DNA of 64,000 nt from an uncultured Coriobacteriaceae bacterium (GTDB lineage: Bacteria > Actinomycetota > Coriobacteriia > Coriobacteriales > Eggerthellaceae). The stretch's first letter is position 1. Every line of letters starts with the position of its first letter. Positions 2,381-30,024 of the stretch are shown here, in pieces. Location of the stretch: NCBI GenBank assembly GCA_902768975.1, contig CACXMZ010000005.1, positions 1 through 64,000 on the forward strand, written 5' to 3'. The notes below the pieces were generated by a model. The model searched no databases and was not told where the DNA came from. It saw nothing but the letters and a program-made list of their open reading frames with translations. The translations under genes were made by a program, and so were the position numbers.

Positions 2381-2617
2381 CTAGTCGATGTCGATAACGT
2401 TGTTGTCGCCGTTAATTTTTATTTCATTTGTGATTGGGGCGGGCTCATATTCCGAGCAGTCGCTCCTGCAGCCCCAGAAGCCGCCGCTTACGCCATCAAG
2501 CTCGTCGTCGCTGAGCTCAAAGCCCTCTTCCTTGGCCATCGTCAGGATGTCCTCAGGGGTCTTGGCGGACTTCAGCTTCTCTTGGAGCTCCGGGTTCTTC
2601 AGATCTTCGAAGTTCAT
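2381..2617 (-). CDS. Nif11-type leader peptide, RiPP precursor (78 aa)
   Basis: The ATG at 2617 follows a GAGGAGG box. Residues 1-46 form a Nif11/NHLP-type leader: an amphipathic N-terminus, a PEDILTMAKEEGFELSDDEL helix-turn-helix and the double-glycine motif DGVSGG (Gly45-Gly46) where C39 peptidase-exporters cut. The core after GG is 32 residues, starts FWGC, has Cys50 and Cys54, several Ser/Thr and an acidic Asn-rich end. Nif11 leaders direct modification and export of peptide natural products. No modifying enzyme is adjacent. The only matching exporter in the window is the NHLM operon at 25020-30024. It may be processed in trans by that operon, which is inference. Confidence 0.8.
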   Translation of the reverse strand: MNFEDLKNPELQEKLKSAKTPEDILTMAKEEGFELSDDELDGVSGGFWGCRSDCSEYEPAPITNEIKINGDNNVIDID

Positions 2618-2730
2618 AGCGTGCCTCCTCAATCGTATTATTCGCCTTCGCCAATTATACGCGAACGGGGCGGAAGGGGTGGCTCTTGTAGTAGGTGCAG
2701 ACGGTGAGCACAAGTAAGAATCAAGCATGT

Positions 2731-2880
2731 TTAAAGCGCCTTGCGCGGACAGTTCCTCACGCACTCGAGGCAAAGGATGCACTCGGTCCCGTTTTGCCTT
2801 TTGGGCGAGGCGCCGGGCGCCGGTTTGCGTTCGTGGATTGGGGATGGTACTGTCAAAGAATTGATATCGTTTATCGCACC
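2731..2880 (-). pseudogene. C-terminal remnant of a ferredoxin-type protein
   Basis: The minus strand encodes CILCLECVRNCP and a stop at 2731. This is a C-x2-C-x2-C-x3-C-P cluster-binding signature of a 4Fe-4S ferredoxin domain. The frame upstream quickly loses likeness and runs antisense to the hydrolase gene, and no start with a ribosome-binding site is present. It is best read as the tail of a truncated iron-sulfur protein left by a rearrangement. Confidence 0.5.
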
Positions 2881-2922: not shown

Positions 2923-3780
2923 ATGGGCGGCCGGATCGAGAAAATGCGCATCCGCGCGAACGGGGTGGGCGTGACGTGCCACTGCGCCGGGGGCGGCGAC
3001 GATGCCATCGTGCTGCTGCACGGCGCCGGCGTGGACTCGGCGATGCTCTCCTGGGGGGAGGTGATCCCGCTGCTGTCCGAGCGGTACCGGGTCATCGCGC
3101 CCGACCTGCCGGGATACGGGACGAGCGACCGAATAGACGGCGAGTATACGCTGGCGTTCTACACCGAGGCGGTGAAGGGCGTGGTCGAGGCGTTCGGCGG
3201 TGAGCCGGTCGTCCTGGTCGGGCTGTCCTTGGGCGGCGGCATATGCCTGAACATGGCGCTGGCCTACCCGGAGCTCGTCAGGGCCCTCGTGCCGGTCGAC
3301 GCGTGGGGTCTGTTCGACAGGCTGCCCTGGCACCGGCTGACCCATTGGTTCGTCCGCTCCAGGATAAACGACAACCTGTACGCATGGGCGGGCAAGCATC
3401 CGTCCGTCATCAGGTTCTCCCTGGAATACAGCCTGTTCGGCGACAAGTCCAGGGTGGGCGACGGCCTGGTCGACGAGATACTGGAGACAATCCGGGAGCC
3501 CGGCGCGGGCAGACCTTTCGTGTCCTTCCAGCGAAGCGAGATCACGCCCACGGGCCTCGCCACCGACCTGTTCGGGAGGCTCCAGGAAATCGCTGCGCCC
3601 ACGCTCCTCGTGCACGGCGCGCTCGACCGGGCGGTTCCCGTGGAAGGCGCCATCCTTGCCGGCGAGAAGATCCCAGACTGCGAAGTGTACCTGATGGAGG
3701 GATGCAAGCACTGGCCTCAGAAGGAGCGCCCGCAGGAGTTCGCGCGCGTCCTGCAGGCGTACCTTGGGAGGAGGCTCTGA
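2923..3780 (+). CDS. Alpha/beta-hydrolase fold protein (285 aa)
   Basis: Cytoplasmic alpha/beta hydrolase. The nucleophile elbow GLSLGG places Ser102. Asp235 (HGALDRAVP) and His263 (GCKHWPQKERP) complete the triad, and HGAGVD near residue 33 supplies the oxyanion loop. The size is typical. The ATG at 2923 sits nine bases after AAGGAGG; an in-frame ATG at 2944 is possible. The substrate cannot be read from sequence: esterases, C-C hydrolases and haloperoxidase-like enzymes share this pattern. It stands alone between the ferredoxin remnant and the island boundary. Glu is almost always GAG, as in the PucR gene and unlike the core genes to the right. Confidence 0.8.
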   Translation: MGGRIEKMRIRANGVGVTCHCAGGGDDAIVLLHGAGVDSAMLSWGEVIPLLSERYRVIAPDLPGYGTSDRIDGEYTLAFYTEAVKGVVEAFGGEPVVLVGLSLGGGICLNMALAYPELVRALVPVDAWGLFDRLPWHRLTHWFVRSRINDNLYAWAGKHPSVIRFSLEYSLFGDKSRVGDGLVDEILETIREPGAGRPFVSFQRSEITPTGLATDLFGRLQEIAAPTLLVHGALDRAVPVEGAILAGEKIPDCEVYLMEGCKHWPQKERPQEFARVLQAYLGRRL

Positions 3781-22095: not shown

Positions 22096-24747
22096 TTAAT
22101 CCCAGCGCTTTGCAATAACGCTAATGTTATTAACGCCTTCACGCACATACAAAGCTGCGTCCATGAGTTCCTTTGTCATGGTAATGCCCAAGCCACCAAT
22201 CTTGGTTTCTTCAATATTCTTAGGACGTTCTGGGTCTTCACGTTCAAAGGGGTTGAAAGGAACGCCAGCATCGCTAATTTCTAAGACCACCATGTTGGGG
22301 CTCGTGCGCCGCGTAAAATGCACACGCAGGGGTTGCGGTGTGCCTTCTTCGGCCCCTTCGTAGGCATAGTTGCACACATTAACGATTAGTTCTTCGGCAG
22401 CCATGAGCACCATATGGGTTTCCTTCGGGGGGCACCCTGCCTCTTCGAGCTGTTCTGTCAAGAAGTTTTCAACCTTTGGGAAATTGGCAAGGTCCGCTTC
22501 GGTGACAAAAGAAGCTCCATGCTCGGGCGGAATGCCGTACTTTAAAACAAGCATGGTAATGTCGTCGGACTGTTCGGCGTCTTTTGCCCAGCGCCCCAGT
22601 TCCGCGCGGAATGCGCGTTGAAGCTGGCGGGGGTGTAATTCTGAATGGTTGACAAGGTAAGCTTCGAGGCGGTCGTTGCCGAACTGTTCTTCTTCGGAAT
22701 TAAAGGCTTCGTTGACGCCGTCGGTATACACAAAGAGCTCGTCGCCTTTTTGAAGCTGTATTTCGAATTGCTTGTATTCAACCCAGTCGAAAGATGCAAG
22801 CATGGGGCCCGATTTTTCTTCAAGCCAGCGCCAGGTGTTGTTCTGCATAACAAGGGGTTTGTTGTGGCCCGCGTTGACGTAGGTTAAAGTTCCATCCCTA
22901 TGATTCAAAACCCCAGCAAAGACGGTAACGAACATTTCTGCGTCGTTGCCTTCGCATAAGTTTTTGTTTGCCATGCTTATGGCTTCTGCCATGGTGGAGC
23001 AGCTGTCCATGGCACTGCGGATTTCGCTTTTCGCAGCCATCATAAACAACGCGGCAGGAATGCCTTTGCCGCTTACGTCGGCCACCACAAAGCCAATGTG
23101 GTCTTCGTCCATTTCGAAGAAGTCGTAGAAGTCGCCACCAATTTCGCGCGCCGGATCCATCGAAGCATAGAGGTCGAAGGAGTCTATGTGGGGGAAAGGC
23201 GTTTGTGCAGATGGAAGGGCACTTTCTTGAATGGCGCTGGCAGCGGCAAGTTCGCGGTCGATGCGCGCGTTTGCTTCGGCAATGGAGTCTTCCAAAGCGC
23301 TTACCGTGGTGTTAATGCCTGCGGAAAGGGAAGACAGTTCACTCGAGTCGCTTTCGGGAACACGCTCAGTCAGGTCGCCGTCGGTAATAAGCTTCAGCGA
23401 CTCATTGGTCTTGCCGATGGGCTTAATAATCACGCGATACAGAAGCTGCATGGTAACAAGGGTGATGGCCCCAAACATAAGGGCAAATACGGCGGCAACC
23501 AAGGACATGTACAGCGGGCGATGCAGGAAGGTTTCGCTTGCTGGAACGATAAGGGCAAGCTGGTAGGTGCCTTCCTGACCAAGGTGTACGCAGTCGGATT
23601 GTACGGTCGACAGGTAGGAAATTTCTAAGCCACGGCCTTCGTAGTATTCGGTTGCCGTAGTCTTTTCGAAGGTTTTTTCGTAGCTTGAACCGCTCACGTT
23701 TTTACTGAGGGTTTCCGAAAGCGACTTCCCAACATATTCGTCATGATTCGCTGCAAAAATAGTATCGTCCAAGGCCATTAAAACGGTATCTTCCGCCCAG
23801 CCTGGGAGGTCGCAGTTAATATTGCGGAAGGCGTTGTTCGCAAAAGAACTTAATTCTTCATGCGAAAGTATTTGTCGCTCTTCCAAGGTTGCCACAATTT
23901 GGTCGCGCTGCTTGAGTTCGTCAACAAGGGAATTAAGGTGGTCGTTGCACGCTACGTTCATATTCTGAATTGAAATGAAGGTCATGGCTGTGAAGGCAAC
24001 ACCGTTGGCGAGAATGAAAAATACAATGGTAAGAACCGTGAGCCAGAATTGAATGATGGTTTGCAGGCTTTGTTTGCCCTGCGTCCGACCAAGGCGCTGC
24101 GATGCGACGTCTGCAAAAATGAGCGCCAAGGCCAGTACAGCGGCATCGATAACAAATTGGATAAAAATGCTTTGGGGATCCGTTATGTGCTTCGCCAATT
24201 CGGTGGGAAGCTGCATATGGTAGGAGGTATTGACGACATTAATGCCGAACTGAATGAATACGGTGCAAAACAGAGCACCAATTAAAGAAATAGCTACAAG
24301 TACACCAATGCGGGCTGCACTTGGTTTTGCAAGCGGGTTTTGAGCGAGTTCTTTTTCGCGAAGCTTTCGATAGCTTATTTCAAGAAGTATGCCAATGAGC
24401 AGGCCAAACAGTGCATAAAGGACAACTGAATTCAGGGGGAAGAAGAAGTATTTTTCGAAATAGTCATAAGGAAGCACCGAAGCATGGAGCATTTCAGCAA
24501 GGCCGGCCAGAATACCGATTATGCTGGCCCGCCACTTACCAAAAAGAAGTGCAGAAAATGCAATAGGGACAAGCAGGAATAGAATGTGGGCTCCACCAAG
24601 AGGGAAGAATCCCATCTGGCCCACTGCCAGAGCAACAACAAGCAAGCAGAGAATGGCATTGACGGCACGTTTTAATACAGTTCGTTCGTTGGCAAGGACG
24701 CCGTTCCATCCCTTTTTGCCAAACTCTCGTTCTCTAAAATCTTTCAT
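22096..24747 (-). CDS. Membrane SpoIIE-type phosphatase fused to an anti-sigma kinase-like ATPase (883 aa)
   Basis: Order of parts: an N-terminal block of membrane helices (residues about 30-265), an extracellular sensing region, another helix near 420, a HAMP-like linker (VIIKPIGKTNESLKLITDGD), a coiled linker, a PP2C/SpoIIE phosphatase (REIGGDFYDFF, VADVSGKGIPAALFM, DELFVYTDGVNEA), and a C-terminal HATPase domain (MAAEELIVNVCNYAYEG, IGGLGITMTKELMD). A sensor phosphatase and an RsbW-type kinase in one chain would both phosphorylate and dephosphorylate the STAS protein encoded opposite. ATG 24747 follows GAAGG. The gene is divergent from the NHLM operon, so the sensing pathway may control that exporter; this is inference. 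Confidence 0.9.
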   Translation of the reverse strand: MKDFREREFGKKGWNGVLANERTVLKRAVNAILCLLVVALAVGQMGFFPLGGAHILFLLVPIAFSALLFGKWRASIIGILAGLAEMLHASVLPYDYFEKYFFFPLNSVVLYALFGLLIGILLEISYRKLREKELAQNPLAKPSAARIGVLVAISLIGALFCTVFIQFGINVVNTSYHMQLPTELAKHITDPQSIFIQFVIDAAVLALALIFADVASQRLGRTQGKQSLQTIIQFWLTVLTIVFFILANGVAFTAMTFISIQNMNVACNDHLNSLVDELKQRDQIVATLEERQILSHEELSSFANNAFRNINCDLPGWAEDTVLMALDDTIFAANHDEYVGKSLSETLSKNVSGSSYEKTFEKTTATEYYEGRGLEISYLSTVQSDCVHLGQEGTYQLALIVPASETFLHRPLYMSLVAAVFALMFGAITLVTMQLLYRVIIKPIGKTNESLKLITDGDLTERVPESDSSELSSLSAGINTTVSALEDSIAEANARIDRELAAASAIQESALPSAQTPFPHIDSFDLYASMDPAREIGGDFYDFFEMDEDHIGFVVADVSGKGIPAALFMMAAKSEIRSAMDSCSTMAEAISMANKNLCEGNDAEMFVTVFAGVLNHRDGTLTYVNAGHNKPLVMQNNTWRWLEEKSGPMLASFDWVEYKQFEIQLQKGDELFVYTDGVNEAFNSEEEQFGNDRLEAYLVNHSELHPRQLQRAFRAELGRWAKDAEQSDDITMLVLKYGIPPEHGASFVTEADLANFPKVENFLTEQLEEAGCPPKETHMVLMAAEELIVNVCNYAYEGAEEGTPQPLRVHFTRRTSPNMVVLEISDAGVPFNPFEREDPERPKNIEETKIGGLGITMTKELMDAALYVREGVNNISVIAKRWD

Positions 24748-25019: not shown

Positions 25020-25643
25020 ATGGCAGAACCATCAGCCAAGCAGGAGTCTCTTGGGTCAAAGATGTTTCGCGAGTCGGCTCTTAACAAGATGTCGTCAGCC
25101 GAAGACCTTGACCGTTATCTTCAAGTAACCAATCCAAGTGCATGGGTTCTTCTTGCGGCTGTGGCCGTATTGCTGATTGCTGCAGTTATCTGGGGCTTTA
25201 CCGCAACTCTGCCAGTTAAAACATCGACCATTGGTGTATTGAAGGACGGCGAAATTACTTTCTTTTTGCCCTACGACGGTGGCGTAAGTGCTACGGAGTT
25301 TAGTGAAGTAACAGCTGCTGGCTATAGCGCAAAAATCAAGTCCATTAACAAAAACCCGCATTCGCGGCGTGAAGTGGAAGCTACTATCGGCAGCGACTAC
25401 ACCTACGACAACCTTACTCTTACGGACTGGAGCTATAAGATCATTATTGACTTGCCTGTCGAAATTTCCGACTGGGTTGATGGCGACGACGTACCTATTG
25501 TGGTGACAACAGAACAGGTTTCGCCCATCAAGTACTTATTTGGCGCTGCAGACGAAACTGCCGTTCAGAGCGCTAAAGCCAATGACAGCACCGCGCAGGC
25601 AAGTAGCGCCCAGGCGACTAGTTCGCAAGTAAACGGAGCGTAA
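25020..25643 (+). CDS. NHLM-type membrane-fusion (HlyD-like) secretion protein (207 aa)
   Basis: The N-terminus (FRESALNKMSSAEDLDRYLQ, then VTNP) is the characteristic start of NHLM secretion proteins. One membrane helix follows at residues about 41-63 and the rest lies outside the membrane with beta-strand style. At 207 residues it is shorter than most of the family; the coiled-coil hairpin is missing. The last 25 residues are Ala/Ser/Gln-rich. ATG 25020 follows AGGAAG. It is the first gene of a tight operon with the two ABC transporters (gap of 7 bp) and would link the exporter to the cell envelope. Confidence 0.8.
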   Translation: MAEPSAKQESLGSKMFRESALNKMSSAEDLDRYLQVTNPSAWVLLAAVAVLLIAAVIWGFTATLPVKTSTIGVLKDGEITFFLPYDGGVSATEFSEVTAAGYSAKIKSINKNPHSRREVEATIGSDYTYDNLTLTDWSYKIIIDLPVEISDWVDGDDVPIVVTTEQVSPIKYLFGAADETAVQSAKANDSTAQASSAQATSSQVNGA

Positions 25644-25650
25644 CCCTGGT

Positions 25651-27828
25651 ATGGCTAAACGCGTACGCAATGTTCCCCAAGTCATGCAGATGGAGGCGAC
25701 CGAATGCGGTGCCGCCTCTCTCGCCATGATACTTGCGCATTACGGGCGCTGGGTTCCGCTTGAAGAAGTACGCAGCGCCTGTGGTGTTTCCCGCGACGGA
25801 AGCAAGGCTGTCAACATCCTTCGTGCCGCACGTGACTATGGGCTTGAAGCCGACGGCTACACTTTCGACCTAGAAGGCCTGCGCGAAAACGCCGAATTCC
25901 CTTGCATCATTTTTTGGAATTTCTACCACTTTGTTGTGCTTACCGGCTTTTCTTCAAATGGCAAATGGGCCTATATTAACGACCCTGCTCGTGGCCAGGT
26001 TCGTGTGAGGATAGAAGACTTCGACCAGTCGTTTACCGGCATCGTTTTGCAAATGCACCCAGGCGAAAACTTCCAGCCTGCGGGCAGTCCTCCTTCAACA
26101 ATAGCCTTCATACGCGAACGTTTAAAGGGGATGACGGGGCCCATACTATTCGTGGCGCTTGCCACAGCCCTTCTTTCAATAATTGGTATTTTGAATTCGT
26201 CCATGGCGCGCGTGTTTGCCGACGTAGTGCTGGGCCATGAAGGGGTCAACTATTCTGCCCTTGTGCCCATTACTATCGCCCTGGCCCTGTTCGCCATACT
26301 TCAAATTGTGGTTACCTTTGCCCACGCTATCTATTTGCTCAGGATTCGTGGCAAGTTTGAAGCGGTCGCATCTTCGAAATTCTTCTGGCACCTTTTGCAC
26401 TTGCCTGCAGAATTTTATTCGCAGCGTCTTGTGGGCGACCTGCAGCAGCGCCAGGCTGCCAATGCCCAGATTGCCCAAACCGTTCTGCGCGACCTTGCAC
26501 CAGCACTTATTAATGCCGTGCTTGTTGTGGTGTATTTGGTGGTCATGTTTATGTACAGTGCGCCGCTCGCGCTTGTGGGCATTGCAGCGGTGGTCATAAA
26601 TTCCCTGATGGCACGCTATATTTCTGAAAAGCGCATTAATATTATGCGCGAATATATGCGTAACGCTGGCATGCAGCACTCCATTGTGGTTGCCGCCGTC
26701 GACATGATTGAAAGTATTAAGGCTTCGGGCGCAGAAGCTGGTTTCTTCGAACGCTGGAGCGGGACCCAGGCCTTAGCAAGCAACGACATTGCCCGTGCAT
26801 CGAAGCTCAACGCCTACCTCGGTTCTATTCCCAGCTTACTCGTGCAGCTCGTCAATGTCATAGTTCTTGTTGTAGGCACCTTGCTTATTATGGATGGCCA
26901 GTTTACCCCTGGCATGCTCTTAGCCTTCCAGGGCTTCCTTTCCGCATTCATGGCTCCTATTAATTCACTCGTGAACCTGGGGCAGACTCTTCAGGAATCG
27001 CGCACGCAGATGGAACGCGTCCAAGACGTGCTGAACTACAAACCCGACGTATCCAAAACCTCCGACGATTCTGACTACCTCGACGAAGAGGACCATGGCC
27101 TTGGCAAGCTTTCGGGCAACATCGACGTGAAGGACATCACTTTTGGCTACTCGAAGCTTGAAAAGCCCACTATTGAAGGTTTCAATTTGCATGTTGAGCC
27201 TGGCCAGTGGGTTGCGTTGGTAGGCGGTTCTGGGTCGGGCAAGTCGACCATTGCCAAGCTTATCAGTGGTCTTTACCAGCCGTGGTCGGGCGAAATTCGA
27301 TTCGACGGAAAGTTGGCAAGCGACATTCCGCGTGGTCAACTGCGTGGCTCTTTGGCCGTCGTGGACCAAGACATTTCCATGTTTGCAGGCACGGTTTCTG
27401 AAAACGTGAGCCTTTGGGACAAGTCCATTGAAGACTTCGAAGTCATTATGGCTTGCCGCGACGCAGACATCCACAATGACATACTTGCGCGTGAAGGTGG
27501 TTATCGCGGCGAAATGCTTGCTGGTGGTAAAAACTTTTCTGGTGGCCAGCTCCAACGCCTCGAAATCGCGCGTGTTTTGGCCCAGGATCCAACCATCGCC
27601 ATTTTAGACGAAGCGACAAGTGCCCTCGACGCCAAAACGGAAGAAAAAGTTATCCACTCCATTCGCAAACGACAAATTACCTGCATTGTGGTTGCTCACA
27701 GGCTTTCAACCATTCGTGACTGCGATGAAATTATCGTGCTTGACCACGGGCACGTAGTTGAACGCGGCACGCATGAAGAACTATTGGCACTGGACGGCGC
27801 CTATGCCGAATTGGTAAGAAACGACTAG
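25651..27828 (+). CDS. NHLM exporter with C39 peptidase and ABC domains (725 aa)
   Basis: Three parts are visible. The C39 peptidase (residues 1-130) has Cys19 in EATECGAASLAMIL, His93 in FYHFVVLTGF and Asp111 in YINDPARG, so the catalytic triad is complete. It cuts leaders after a double glycine. A six-helix ABC membrane domain spans about 155-440. The ATPase has Walker A GGSGSGKST and the signature NFSGGQLQR. Such proteins remove Nif11-type leaders and export the core. The orphan Nif11 peptide at 2381 has a matching GG site. The operon is complete for export but has no precursor beside it. Confidence 0.92.
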   Translation: MAKRVRNVPQVMQMEATECGAASLAMILAHYGRWVPLEEVRSACGVSRDGSKAVNILRAARDYGLEADGYTFDLEGLRENAEFPCIIFWNFYHFVVLTGFSSNGKWAYINDPARGQVRVRIEDFDQSFTGIVLQMHPGENFQPAGSPPSTIAFIRERLKGMTGPILFVALATALLSIIGILNSSMARVFADVVLGHEGVNYSALVPITIALALFAILQIVVTFAHAIYLLRIRGKFEAVASSKFFWHLLHLPAEFYSQRLVGDLQQRQAANAQIAQTVLRDLAPALINAVLVVVYLVVMFMYSAPLALVGIAAVVINSLMARYISEKRINIMREYMRNAGMQHSIVVAAVDMIESIKASGAEAGFFERWSGTQALASNDIARASKLNAYLGSIPSLLVQLVNVIVLVVGTLLIMDGQFTPGMLLAFQGFLSAFMAPINSLVNLGQTLQESRTQMERVQDVLNYKPDVSKTSDDSDYLDEEDHGLGKLSGNIDVKDITFGYSKLEKPTIEGFNLHVEPGQWVALVGGSGSGKSTIAKLISGLYQPWSGEIRFDGKLASDIPRGQLRGSLAVVDQDISMFAGTVSENVSLWDKSIEDFEVIMACRDADIHNDILAREGGYRGEMLAGGKNFSGGQLQRLEIARVLAQDPTIAILDEATSALDAKTEEKVIHSIRKRQITCIVVAHRLSTIRDCDEIIVLDHGHVVERGTHEELLALDGAYAELVRND

Positions 27829-27837
27829 GGTTGTCTT

Positions 27838-30024
27838 ATGAGTTGGTTTGAAGAACAACTAAAGACACGTAATCGCCTCGACGACGAACAGATTATCGAA
27901 GCGTACGACAAGATTGCGCGCGCGGTGGTAGACACCAAAGCCGCTTCGCGCCTTTCCTTCGACGAACTCGCAGCAACCGACAATGCGGTGGCAGCACTAC
28001 TTCATTACTTTGGCCGCCAGCCAGACCCTGTGCCCGACACGATAGTCGACCCACTGGACCGCATGGACATGGCCATTCAGTCGAGCGGCCTTATGAAGCG
28101 AAAGGTGTATTTGAAGGGCGAATGGTGGAAGGACGCAACAGGTGCATATTTAGGACAACTTAAAAGCGGTGAAGCTATCGCTATTTTCCCCTTCGGCATG
28201 CGCAGCTATGTGTATGTTGAGCCACGCACGAACAAGAAAGTTCTTGTGACCAAGAGAACCGCGGCTGACGTTATGTCTGAAGCCTATTGCTTCTATCGTC
28301 CTTTGCCCGACACGAAGCTTAGCTTGCGCGACCTGGTTCATTTCATGTTTTCTTCGCTCGACCCAGGCGACTATATGCGCATGATTATGGCAGCTTTGGT
28401 CGTTGTTCTTATTGGTCTTTTGCCTGCCGTGGCAAACAACCTCTTGTTTGACCGCGTTATACCTTCGGGTAACCCCAACCTCATTGTGCCTATTTGTGCC
28501 CTGCTTCTTGGGGCGGTGTTTGGGCAAGCACTCATTGGTATTGCGCGAAACATGATTACAGCTCGCCTTTCTAGCAAGCTTTCAATTCAAGTTGAAGCAG
28601 CCATGACGGCTAGGCTGTTTTCACTCGATGCTTCATTCTTCAAAAACAGGCAGGCGGGCGACCTTGCAAAGCGCGTGGGAAGTGTTAAAAATCTTATAGA
28701 TATTCTTACGCAAGTTGGCTTAGGCGCAGGTCTTACGGCACTCTTTTCATTTGCGTATATCGTACAGATTCTTTCGTTTGCACCTTCACTTGCCATTCCT
28801 GCCTTAATCGTTATCGGCGTTCAAATTGTTCTTGGCATTGCTATTGCAGTAACCCAGGTACGCATGCAACAGGACATTGTCAAGTCCGACCTTGAAGTTT
28901 CGGGCCTGGTTCCAATCTTATTGAATGGTGTTTTGAAGTTGAAGTTAGCAGGCGCCGAAAAGCGTGCGTTCGCACGTTGGGCGGAAGCCGAATCGAAGAG
29001 CCTTCAAACGAAGTACAACATTCCATTCTGGTATAAGATTTCAAATACCTTGCCGCCTCTTGTTACTCTCATAGGTACTATTCTGATTTATTGGGTGGCA
29101 GGCACGACGAATGTTTCACTTCCTGAATTTATGGCATTTAATGTGGCCTATGGCGCTGTGCTTGGGGCTGTTACCATGCTTGCTTCCATGGCACCCAGCT
29201 TTGCCGCTGCGCGTGCTGCTGTCGATTCTTTGAAGCCCTTGCTCGAAGCTGTTCCCGAACCTGTGCAGCGCGGTAAAACGATTTCAAACATCACCGGCTC
29301 TATTGAAATGTCGGGCCTCACTTTCCGCTATACGCCTGCGCAAAAGCCCATTATCGACAACCTTTCTTTGAAGATAAGCCCTGGTGAATACCTTGCCGTT
29401 GTGGGTAAATCAGGGTCGGGCAAGTCTACACTTATGCGCTTGCTTCTGGGGCTTGAAAAGCCAGAGCGCGGTGCCATTTATTACAGTGGCCAGGACTTAA
29501 ACGACCTCGACATTCGTTCCCTGCGCCGCATTGTTGGTGTGTGCTTGCAAAATGGCAGCCTGTTTTCAGGAACCATCTTCCATAACATTACGATTTCTTC
29601 GCCGCGTGCCACTATGGACGACGCGTGGGAAGCGGCAGAACTTGCTGGTGTCGCAGACGACATTCGCGCCATGCCCATGGGCATGCATACCCTTGTATCT
29701 GAAGGTTCGGGCGGCGTTTCGGGCGGCCAGCGTCAGCGCATCCTTATTGCGCAGGCGGTCTGTTCAAAGCCGCGTATTCTTATGTTCGACGAAGCCACGA
29801 GTGCCTTGGACAACGTAACGCAAAAGCATGTGAGCGACGCGCTTGCAGGTCTAAAATGTACGCGCATCGTGGTGGCACACCGTCTTTCAACTATCAAGCT
29901 CGCCGACCGTATTGTTATGCTCGACGGTGGCCACATTATCGAAGAAGGCACCTACGACGAATTGATCGCCTTAGATGGTGAATTTGCCGAACTTGTCAGG
30001 CGTCAACAACTTGAAAAGCCATAA
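27838..30024 (+). CDS. NHLM exporter, second ABC transporter (728 aa)
   Basis: Paired with the C39-ABC protein in NHLM systems. The N-terminal 160 residues form the extra domain seen in these second ABC proteins (RLSFDELAATDNAVAALLHY; KVYLKGEWWKDATGAYLGQL), without a peptidase Cys. A six-helix membrane domain follows (about 175-460), then an ATPase with Walker A GKSGSGKST, signature GVSGGQRQR and Walker B MFDEATS. The start lies 9 bp after the previous stop. The two ABC proteins probably act as a heterodimer. Confidence 0.92.
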   Translation: MSWFEEQLKTRNRLDDEQIIEAYDKIARAVVDTKAASRLSFDELAATDNAVAALLHYFGRQPDPVPDTIVDPLDRMDMAIQSSGLMKRKVYLKGEWWKDATGAYLGQLKSGEAIAIFPFGMRSYVYVEPRTNKKVLVTKRTAADVMSEAYCFYRPLPDTKLSLRDLVHFMFSSLDPGDYMRMIMAALVVVLIGLLPAVANNLLFDRVIPSGNPNLIVPICALLLGAVFGQALIGIARNMITARLSSKLSIQVEAAMTARLFSLDASFFKNRQAGDLAKRVGSVKNLIDILTQVGLGAGLTALFSFAYIVQILSFAPSLAIPALIVIGVQIVLGIAIAVTQVRMQQDIVKSDLEVSGLVPILLNGVLKLKLAGAEKRAFARWAEAESKSLQTKYNIPFWYKISNTLPPLVTLIGTILIYWVAGTTNVSLPEFMAFNVAYGAVLGAVTMLASMAPSFAAARAAVDSLKPLLEAVPEPVQRGKTISNITGSIEMSGLTFRYTPAQKPIIDNLSLKISPGEYLAVVGKSGSGKSTLMRLLLGLEKPERGAIYYSGQDLNDLDIRSLRRIVGVCLQNGSLFSGTIFHNITISSPRATMDDAWEAAELAGVADDIRAMPMGMHTLVSEGSGGVSGGQRQRILIAQAVCSKPRILMFDEATSALDNVTQKHVSDALAGLKCTRIVVAHRLSTIKLADRIVMLDGGHIIEEGTYDELIALDGEFAELVRRQQLEKP

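Follow-up and report, generated by a model that had tools for sequence, protein, structure and literature searches.

The window analysed here is a stretch of 64,000 nucleotides from the genome of an uncultured Coriobacteriaceae bacterium (source assembly of 1.89 Mb, 96% complete). Near its beginning lies a small gene on the reverse strand, designated P0001, with the following features:

2381-2617 (-), Nif11-leader precursor gene P0001, 78 aa (PF07862 and TIGR03798, above cut-off)
2480-2617 (-), leader of P0001, 46 aa, with a V-S-G-G end (sequence; C39 motif according to PMC6363468)
2384-2479 (-), core of P0001, 32 aa, consisting of FWGCRSDCSEYEP and the tail APITNEIKINGDNNVIDID (sequence; family comparison)
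2624-2629 (-), ribosome-binding site AGGAGG, 6 nt before the ATG (sequence)

The translation of P0001 is MNFEDLKNPELQEKLKSAKTPEDILTMAKEEGFELSDDELDGVSGG for the leader and FWGCRSDCSEYEPAPITNEIKINGDNNVIDID for the core, which contains two Cys. In profile searches, the peptide scored 44.1 bits against PF07862 (cut-off 23.8) and 39 bits against TIGR03798 (cut-off 32.3). The ComA-type C39 consensus is a leader pattern L-12/E-8/L-7/GG (PMC6363468), and the P0001 leader has L(-12), E(-8), L(-7), V(-4), G(-2) and G(-1) at C39-type positions. These scores and this motif bear out an earlier note on this DNA, in which the leader and the GG site were described as clear. The properties of the TIGR03798 class were found for P0001, i.e., the leader, the Gly-Gly/C39 site, a paralogous family, and an NHLM system in the genome. 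Judged by its sequence, P0001 is a genuine Nif11-type RiPP precursor.

The genes flanking P0001 encode a PucR-type regulator, an alpha/beta hydrolase and a small protein without assignment. The earlier note had seen no modifying enzyme nearby, and profile searches around the locus agree, with none among the neighbouring genes; no maturase was found within approximately 7-10 kb of P0001 or of its closest relatives. Another reading frame in this region has a C-terminus with a 4Fe-4S ferredoxin motif (QNGTECILCLECVRNCPRKAL; 2731-2830, reverse strand), and its upstream part is merely the antisense of the alpha/beta hydrolase gene (2923-3780). This frame resembles the remains of a gene truncated by the hydrolase gene.

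Nif11 paralogues and the core family

The genome contains 16 Nif11 reading frames, 15 of them besides P0001 and 10 above the Pfam cut-off, spread over contigs C1, C2, C4, C5, C6 and C7, and the majority stand alone. The leader is conserved, and the cores are short and variable. In 15 of the 16 cores, a Trp is found no more than four residues from the GG, usually with a Cys after it; the naive binomial probability of this count is 2e-19, a value to be read with the non-independence of paralogues in mind. A dispersal repeat common to the scattered genes was considered and rejected, because these genes share only leader-gene DNA, with two exceptions: two C2 genes have a 149-nt stretch in common in inverted orientation, and another pair of genes matches over a longer stretch upstream. 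P0001 itself has no DNA match to the other scattered Nif11 genes at E 1e-4. A phage origin was likewise rejected, since viral contigs contained no relative. It should be noted that behind some Nif11 leaders, including ones from other genomes' loci, a zinc-ribbon-like C-terminus replaces the short core (C2:118559-118768, which is L009:8560-8769; C2:154579-154719; L245; L260).

Comparison of 101 non-redundant short cores revealed a sequence grammar in which Cys-Cys spacings of four or five are over-represented and those of one or two under-represented; after a Cys, Tyr is enriched at position +3 (z 8.8), Pro at +1, and Asp at +2 and +3. The P0001 core FWGCRSDCSEYEP, with W2, C4-x3-C8 and C8-x2-Y11, fits this grammar. 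Zinc binding as a general role was rejected, because in the short cores closely spaced Cys are under-represented and C-x2-C shows no enrichment. In the maturase-bearing genomes of the bacterial family, Trp is present in the first four residues of 54 of 58 cores, and the maturase-negative genomes have too few leaders of the P0001 type for a contrast in this property. The number of Cys is odd in 38 of 82 Trp cores; such cores are therefore common enough to argue against simple disulphides as the common modification. The earlier note could not match the P0001 core to a familiar RiPP class, a view that has to be revised, given that the core belongs to a Trp/Cys family with relatives adjoining radical-SAM/SPASM genes.

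The nearest relatives of the P0001 leader form a sub-family with the core SFWDSDNFCTDYRGxELDSEPGWN, which is kept across genera in two families of the order. P0001 and this sub-family share FW-x5-C-x-[DE]-Y in exact register, and the sub-family genes are also stand-alone. Another stand-alone core, WSCDSFGERSDCHLNQWYE, is near-identical in several genera (L049:1114-1329, L028:981-1223, L238:1019-1213, L234:466-747, L229 and L306), therefore at least some orphan peptides are under strong constraint.

The 19-residue tail APITNEIKINGDNNVIDID is absent from every relative found and is unique to P0001 among the fetched sequences; no orthologue with the exact P0001 core was found among the relatives fetched. 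A direct repeat, not found in the other fetched loci, lies at the 3' end of the gene, its two copies spaced 62 nt apart:

2377-2395, 19-nt direct repeat copy 1, spanning the IDID-stop end of the core (repeat search)
2315-2333, 19-nt direct repeat copy 2, 95% identical to copy 1 (repeat search)

The unique and unusually long tail, together with this repeat, could be taken to indicate a decaying paralogue that has lost its original stop codon and whose peptide has ceased to be produced or used. Indeed, one of the paralogues in this genome has a core that stops at CPTYEP-stop, whereas P0001 continues past CSEYEP, and no Nif11 gene is present at the syntenic position in a sister species. However, the reading frame of P0001 is intact and its ribosome-binding site is strong, and the leader, the C39 motif, the W and the C-x3-C-x2-Y motif are all intact as well, so that we regard decay as highly improbable.

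Maturases and their association with Nif11 genes

There are three mutually related radical-SAM/SPASM proteins in the genome, encoded on contigs C4 (P0003), C6 and C7; the C6 and C7 enzymes are 48% and 34% identical to P0003, respectively. The P0003 gene is located downstream of an NHLM exporter. On contig C7, a Nif11 gene lies immediately upstream of the radical-SAM/SPASM gene, and an NHLM exporter is encoded two genes further along. According to the earlier note, a Nif11 gene beside a modifying enzyme elsewhere in the genome would speak against its proposal; the C7 arrangement is of this kind, and therefore weakens the reading of P0001 and the window's exporter as a lone pair and strengthens the general idea of trans-processing. 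LanM and TOMM chemistry for P0001 were ruled out, because profile searches of the genome found neither LanC (PF05147), as needed for a prochlorosin-type lanthipeptide class, nor YcaO (PF02624), as needed for the TOMM/azole class.

The predicted structure of P0003 (pLDDT 89, pTM 0.85) has its best structural match, over nearly the whole length, in the thioether-forming RiPP maturase CteB (5why, 5wgg). Its N-terminal beta3-alpha3 unit is probably RRE-like, as suggested by the fold alone. Across 30 homologues, neither the CxxxCxxC radical-SAM triad nor any of the seven SPASM Cys varies; thus, P0003 has the ranthipeptide architecture of RRE, radical-SAM and SPASM domains, with the RRE taken from the predicted fold only. 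In profile searches, P0003-type enzymes scored below every NCBIfam equivalog cut-off. The nearest equivalog to P0003 is TIGR04463 (220 bits versus a cut-off of 525); the scores of the maturases against TIGR04064 were 68.9 and 73.2 versus 518.7 bits, and those against the PapB and SCIFF equivalogs were 110.7 versus 340 and 64.1 versus 425 bits.

Using P0003 as a query against the named genomes, we obtained 80 loci, chiefly from ruminant-gut MAGs of Eggerthellaceae, Coriobacteriaceae and Atopobiaceae, with some from Clostridia and Chloroflexi. A Nif11 reading frame (E <= 1e-6) was found at a distance of 500 bp or less in 32 of these loci, and the remaining ones, like that on C4, have no Nif11 reading frame that close. 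Many of the maturase-adjoining cores resemble WCVNDCPNDCRSDCRVPFGR, WCGDCSSDGQLCGTPYLR or MMWGDVCVGVACKVCRGYKGCKVY. The precursor WCVNDCPNDCRSDCRVPFGR, located 37 bp from a maturase 73% identical to P0003, has the same CRSDC as the P0001 core.

Among 122 genomes of the family, Nif11 genes are present in 27 and a strong P0003 relative in 16, all 16 of which have Nif11 (Fisher 3e-13); NHLM ABC1 also co-occurs with Nif11 (p 2e-16). In the Nif11-bearing genomes of the family, the number of Nif11 genes grows with the number of maturases (Spearman 0.74). Of 395 genomes of the order, 20 have a P0001-like match (E <= 1e-14), and the maturase was found in 19 of these versus 42 of the other 375 (Fisher 5e-16). 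The genomes share ancestry, and the Fisher p-values overstate their independence. The pairing of P0001 with P0003 is thus statistical, with no maturase near the gene.

These data also bear on the choice of enzyme. P0001 might be modified in trans by the C7 radical-SAM protein or by some other unrecognised enzyme, the C4 enzyme serving other precursors, and C7 is the genome's one site where Nif11 and maturase genes directly adjoin each other, with an exporter not far off. Yet the precursor adjoining the C7 enzyme differs in the end of its leader (IPDEELEAVAGG) and carries four Cys in its core, whereas the CRSDC pattern of P0001 matches precursors that adjoin P0003-type enzymes, which makes this assignment quite unlikely.

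Export and the proposed trans-processing

An NHLM exporter is encoded within the window:

25020-25643 (+), short HlyD-like NHLM accessory protein, possible trans partner (TIGR03794, E 1.9e-8, below cut-off)
25651-27828 (+), NHLM_micro_ABC1 with C39 peptidase (TIGR03796, 925.7 bits, above cut-off; PF03412)
27838-30024 (+), NHLM_micro_ABC2-like permease/ATPase (TIGR03797, 685.9 bits, slightly under the cut-off of 709.4)

As the earlier note had stated for the window's only NHLM exporter, no Nif11 gene lies beside it (25020-30024). The note had gone on to suggest that P0001 and this exporter work together in trans. A trans arrangement is likely, but this particular pairing is possible and unsupported: C39/NHLM ABC1 exporters are encoded at three sites in the genome, on C4, C5 and C7, so that there is no special reason to favour that of the window. 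SpoIIE phosphatase, STAS and HATPase genes, a partner-switching set, lie in some form beside all three exporters (22096-24747 on the reverse strand near 25020-30024; G000 C4:32829-33131; G000 C7:143922-147119), and elsewhere in the bacterial family 7 of 20 NHLM loci include SpoIIE-type genes; a regulatory link between these genes and peptide export may exist. An NHLM ABC2 gene on C7 is directly followed by a gene for an M13-family metallopeptidase, a probable PepO-like lipoprotein (G000 C7:135778-138003, reverse strand; L016:10779-13004), which could act on exported peptides.

Alternatively, P0001 could be an enzymatically unmodified double-Gly bacteriocin or pheromone with at most one disulphide between its two Cys, exported by the window's NHLM transporter: this transporter lacks a precursor beside it, the leader has all that C39 needs, and the core has two Cys four apart, with no maturase near. 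On the other hand, many family members, including the conserved relatives with SFWDSDNFCTDYRG, have one or three Cys, and the precursor family tracks the radical-SAM maturase; we consider the unmodified peptide unlikely. The preferred reading, to which we assign a probability of roughly 0.6, is that P0001 belongs to a dispersed library of Trp/Cys Nif11 precursors that are modified in trans by an RRE-radical-SAM-SPASM enzyme, and cleaved and exported by an NHLM system. The identity of the precursor, its C39 motif and core family, the genome's set of enzymes and exporters, and their linkage and co-occurrence are all evident from the sequence; from them we infer three processing steps for P0001, as well as the kind of bond and the function of the peptide. 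A maturase encoded elsewhere, either P0003 on C4 or its C6 or C7 paralogue, would bind the leader through its RRE-like N-terminal domain. The maturase would then cross-link the W...C-x3-C-x2-Y segment, most likely through a Cys thioether. Finally, the C39 domain of an NHLM exporter would cleave after the GG, and the 32-residue product would be secreted, plausibly to act in signalling or antagonism.

One of the closest parallels is that of the prochlorosins and synechococsins (ProcA/ProcM), in which scattered precursors with Nif11-type leaders and hypervariable cores share one promiscuous maturase and are exported through double-Gly C39 cleavage (PMC10783134; PMC2887384). In contrast to this LanM system, the P0001 genome has no LanC-type enzyme, the linked enzyme is a radical-SAM/SPASM protein, and the cores of the P0001 family have the N-terminal Trp and the Cys spacing in common. 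A 2010 paper, which already mentioned Eggerthella lenta, described Nif11 precursors together with their expansion and export by NHLM systems (PMC2887384), and Nif11 with radical-SAM as the sole maturase was noted in 2011 (PMC3023750). The latter TIGR04064 systems resemble the present one in the Nif11 leader and in a radical-SAM protein as the only candidate maturase, but the enzyme described here falls far below that cut-off, and is nearer to TIGR04463, whose cut-off it also misses by far. The Lah cluster of Lachnospiraceae C6A11 (LahA/LahT) likewise has several Nif11 precursors, and its one C39 exporter tolerates diverse cores (PMC6363468); Lah, however, is a clustered lanthipeptide system, whereas the P0001 family consists of dispersed radical-SAM precursors.

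Ranthipeptides (CteB/SCIFF, PapB/PapA), a class characterised by a Cys thioether to a non-alpha carbon, share the RRE-radical-SAM-SPASM architecture, and in P0001-family cores, as in ranthipeptides, Asp or Tyr occurs at a fixed spacing after Cys. The PapA leader is not known to be of the Nif11 type. The PapA motif is C-x3-D (PMC9413430), whereas cores of the P0001 family have C-x2-D/Y, a near-constant early Trp and a putative cross-link.

We tentatively propose, with somewhat less than an even chance of being right, an undescribed RiPP class, mostly from ruminant gut Coriobacteriia, in which a promiscuous trans-acting RRE-radical-SAM-SPASM enzyme serves scattered Nif11 precursors with N-terminal Trp, C-x3/4-C and C-x2-Y/D. 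Such a class would comprise a dozen or more precursors for one or a few enzymes, possibly with a Cys cross-link involving Trp or Tyr. In the open-access papers searched, we found nothing on this combination in rumen bacteria. If real, the class would be a radical-SAM counterpart of the prochlorosins. Promiscuous trans maturases with scattered precursor libraries have so far been mainly those of lanthipeptides; a radical-SAM version in gut bacteria would provide natural substrate libraries for a cross-linking enzyme. The conserved members, WSCDSFGERSDCHLNQWYE and the sub-family nearest to the P0001 leader, suggest that some of these peptides are secreted and have roles in the ruminant gut that have been conserved. 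It should be noted that genome G087 (L211-L216), which has no P0003-type maturase, carries another Nif11 family, with longer leaders, repeated GGGRGWC...NEC...CKD cores and 11 Nif11 matches.
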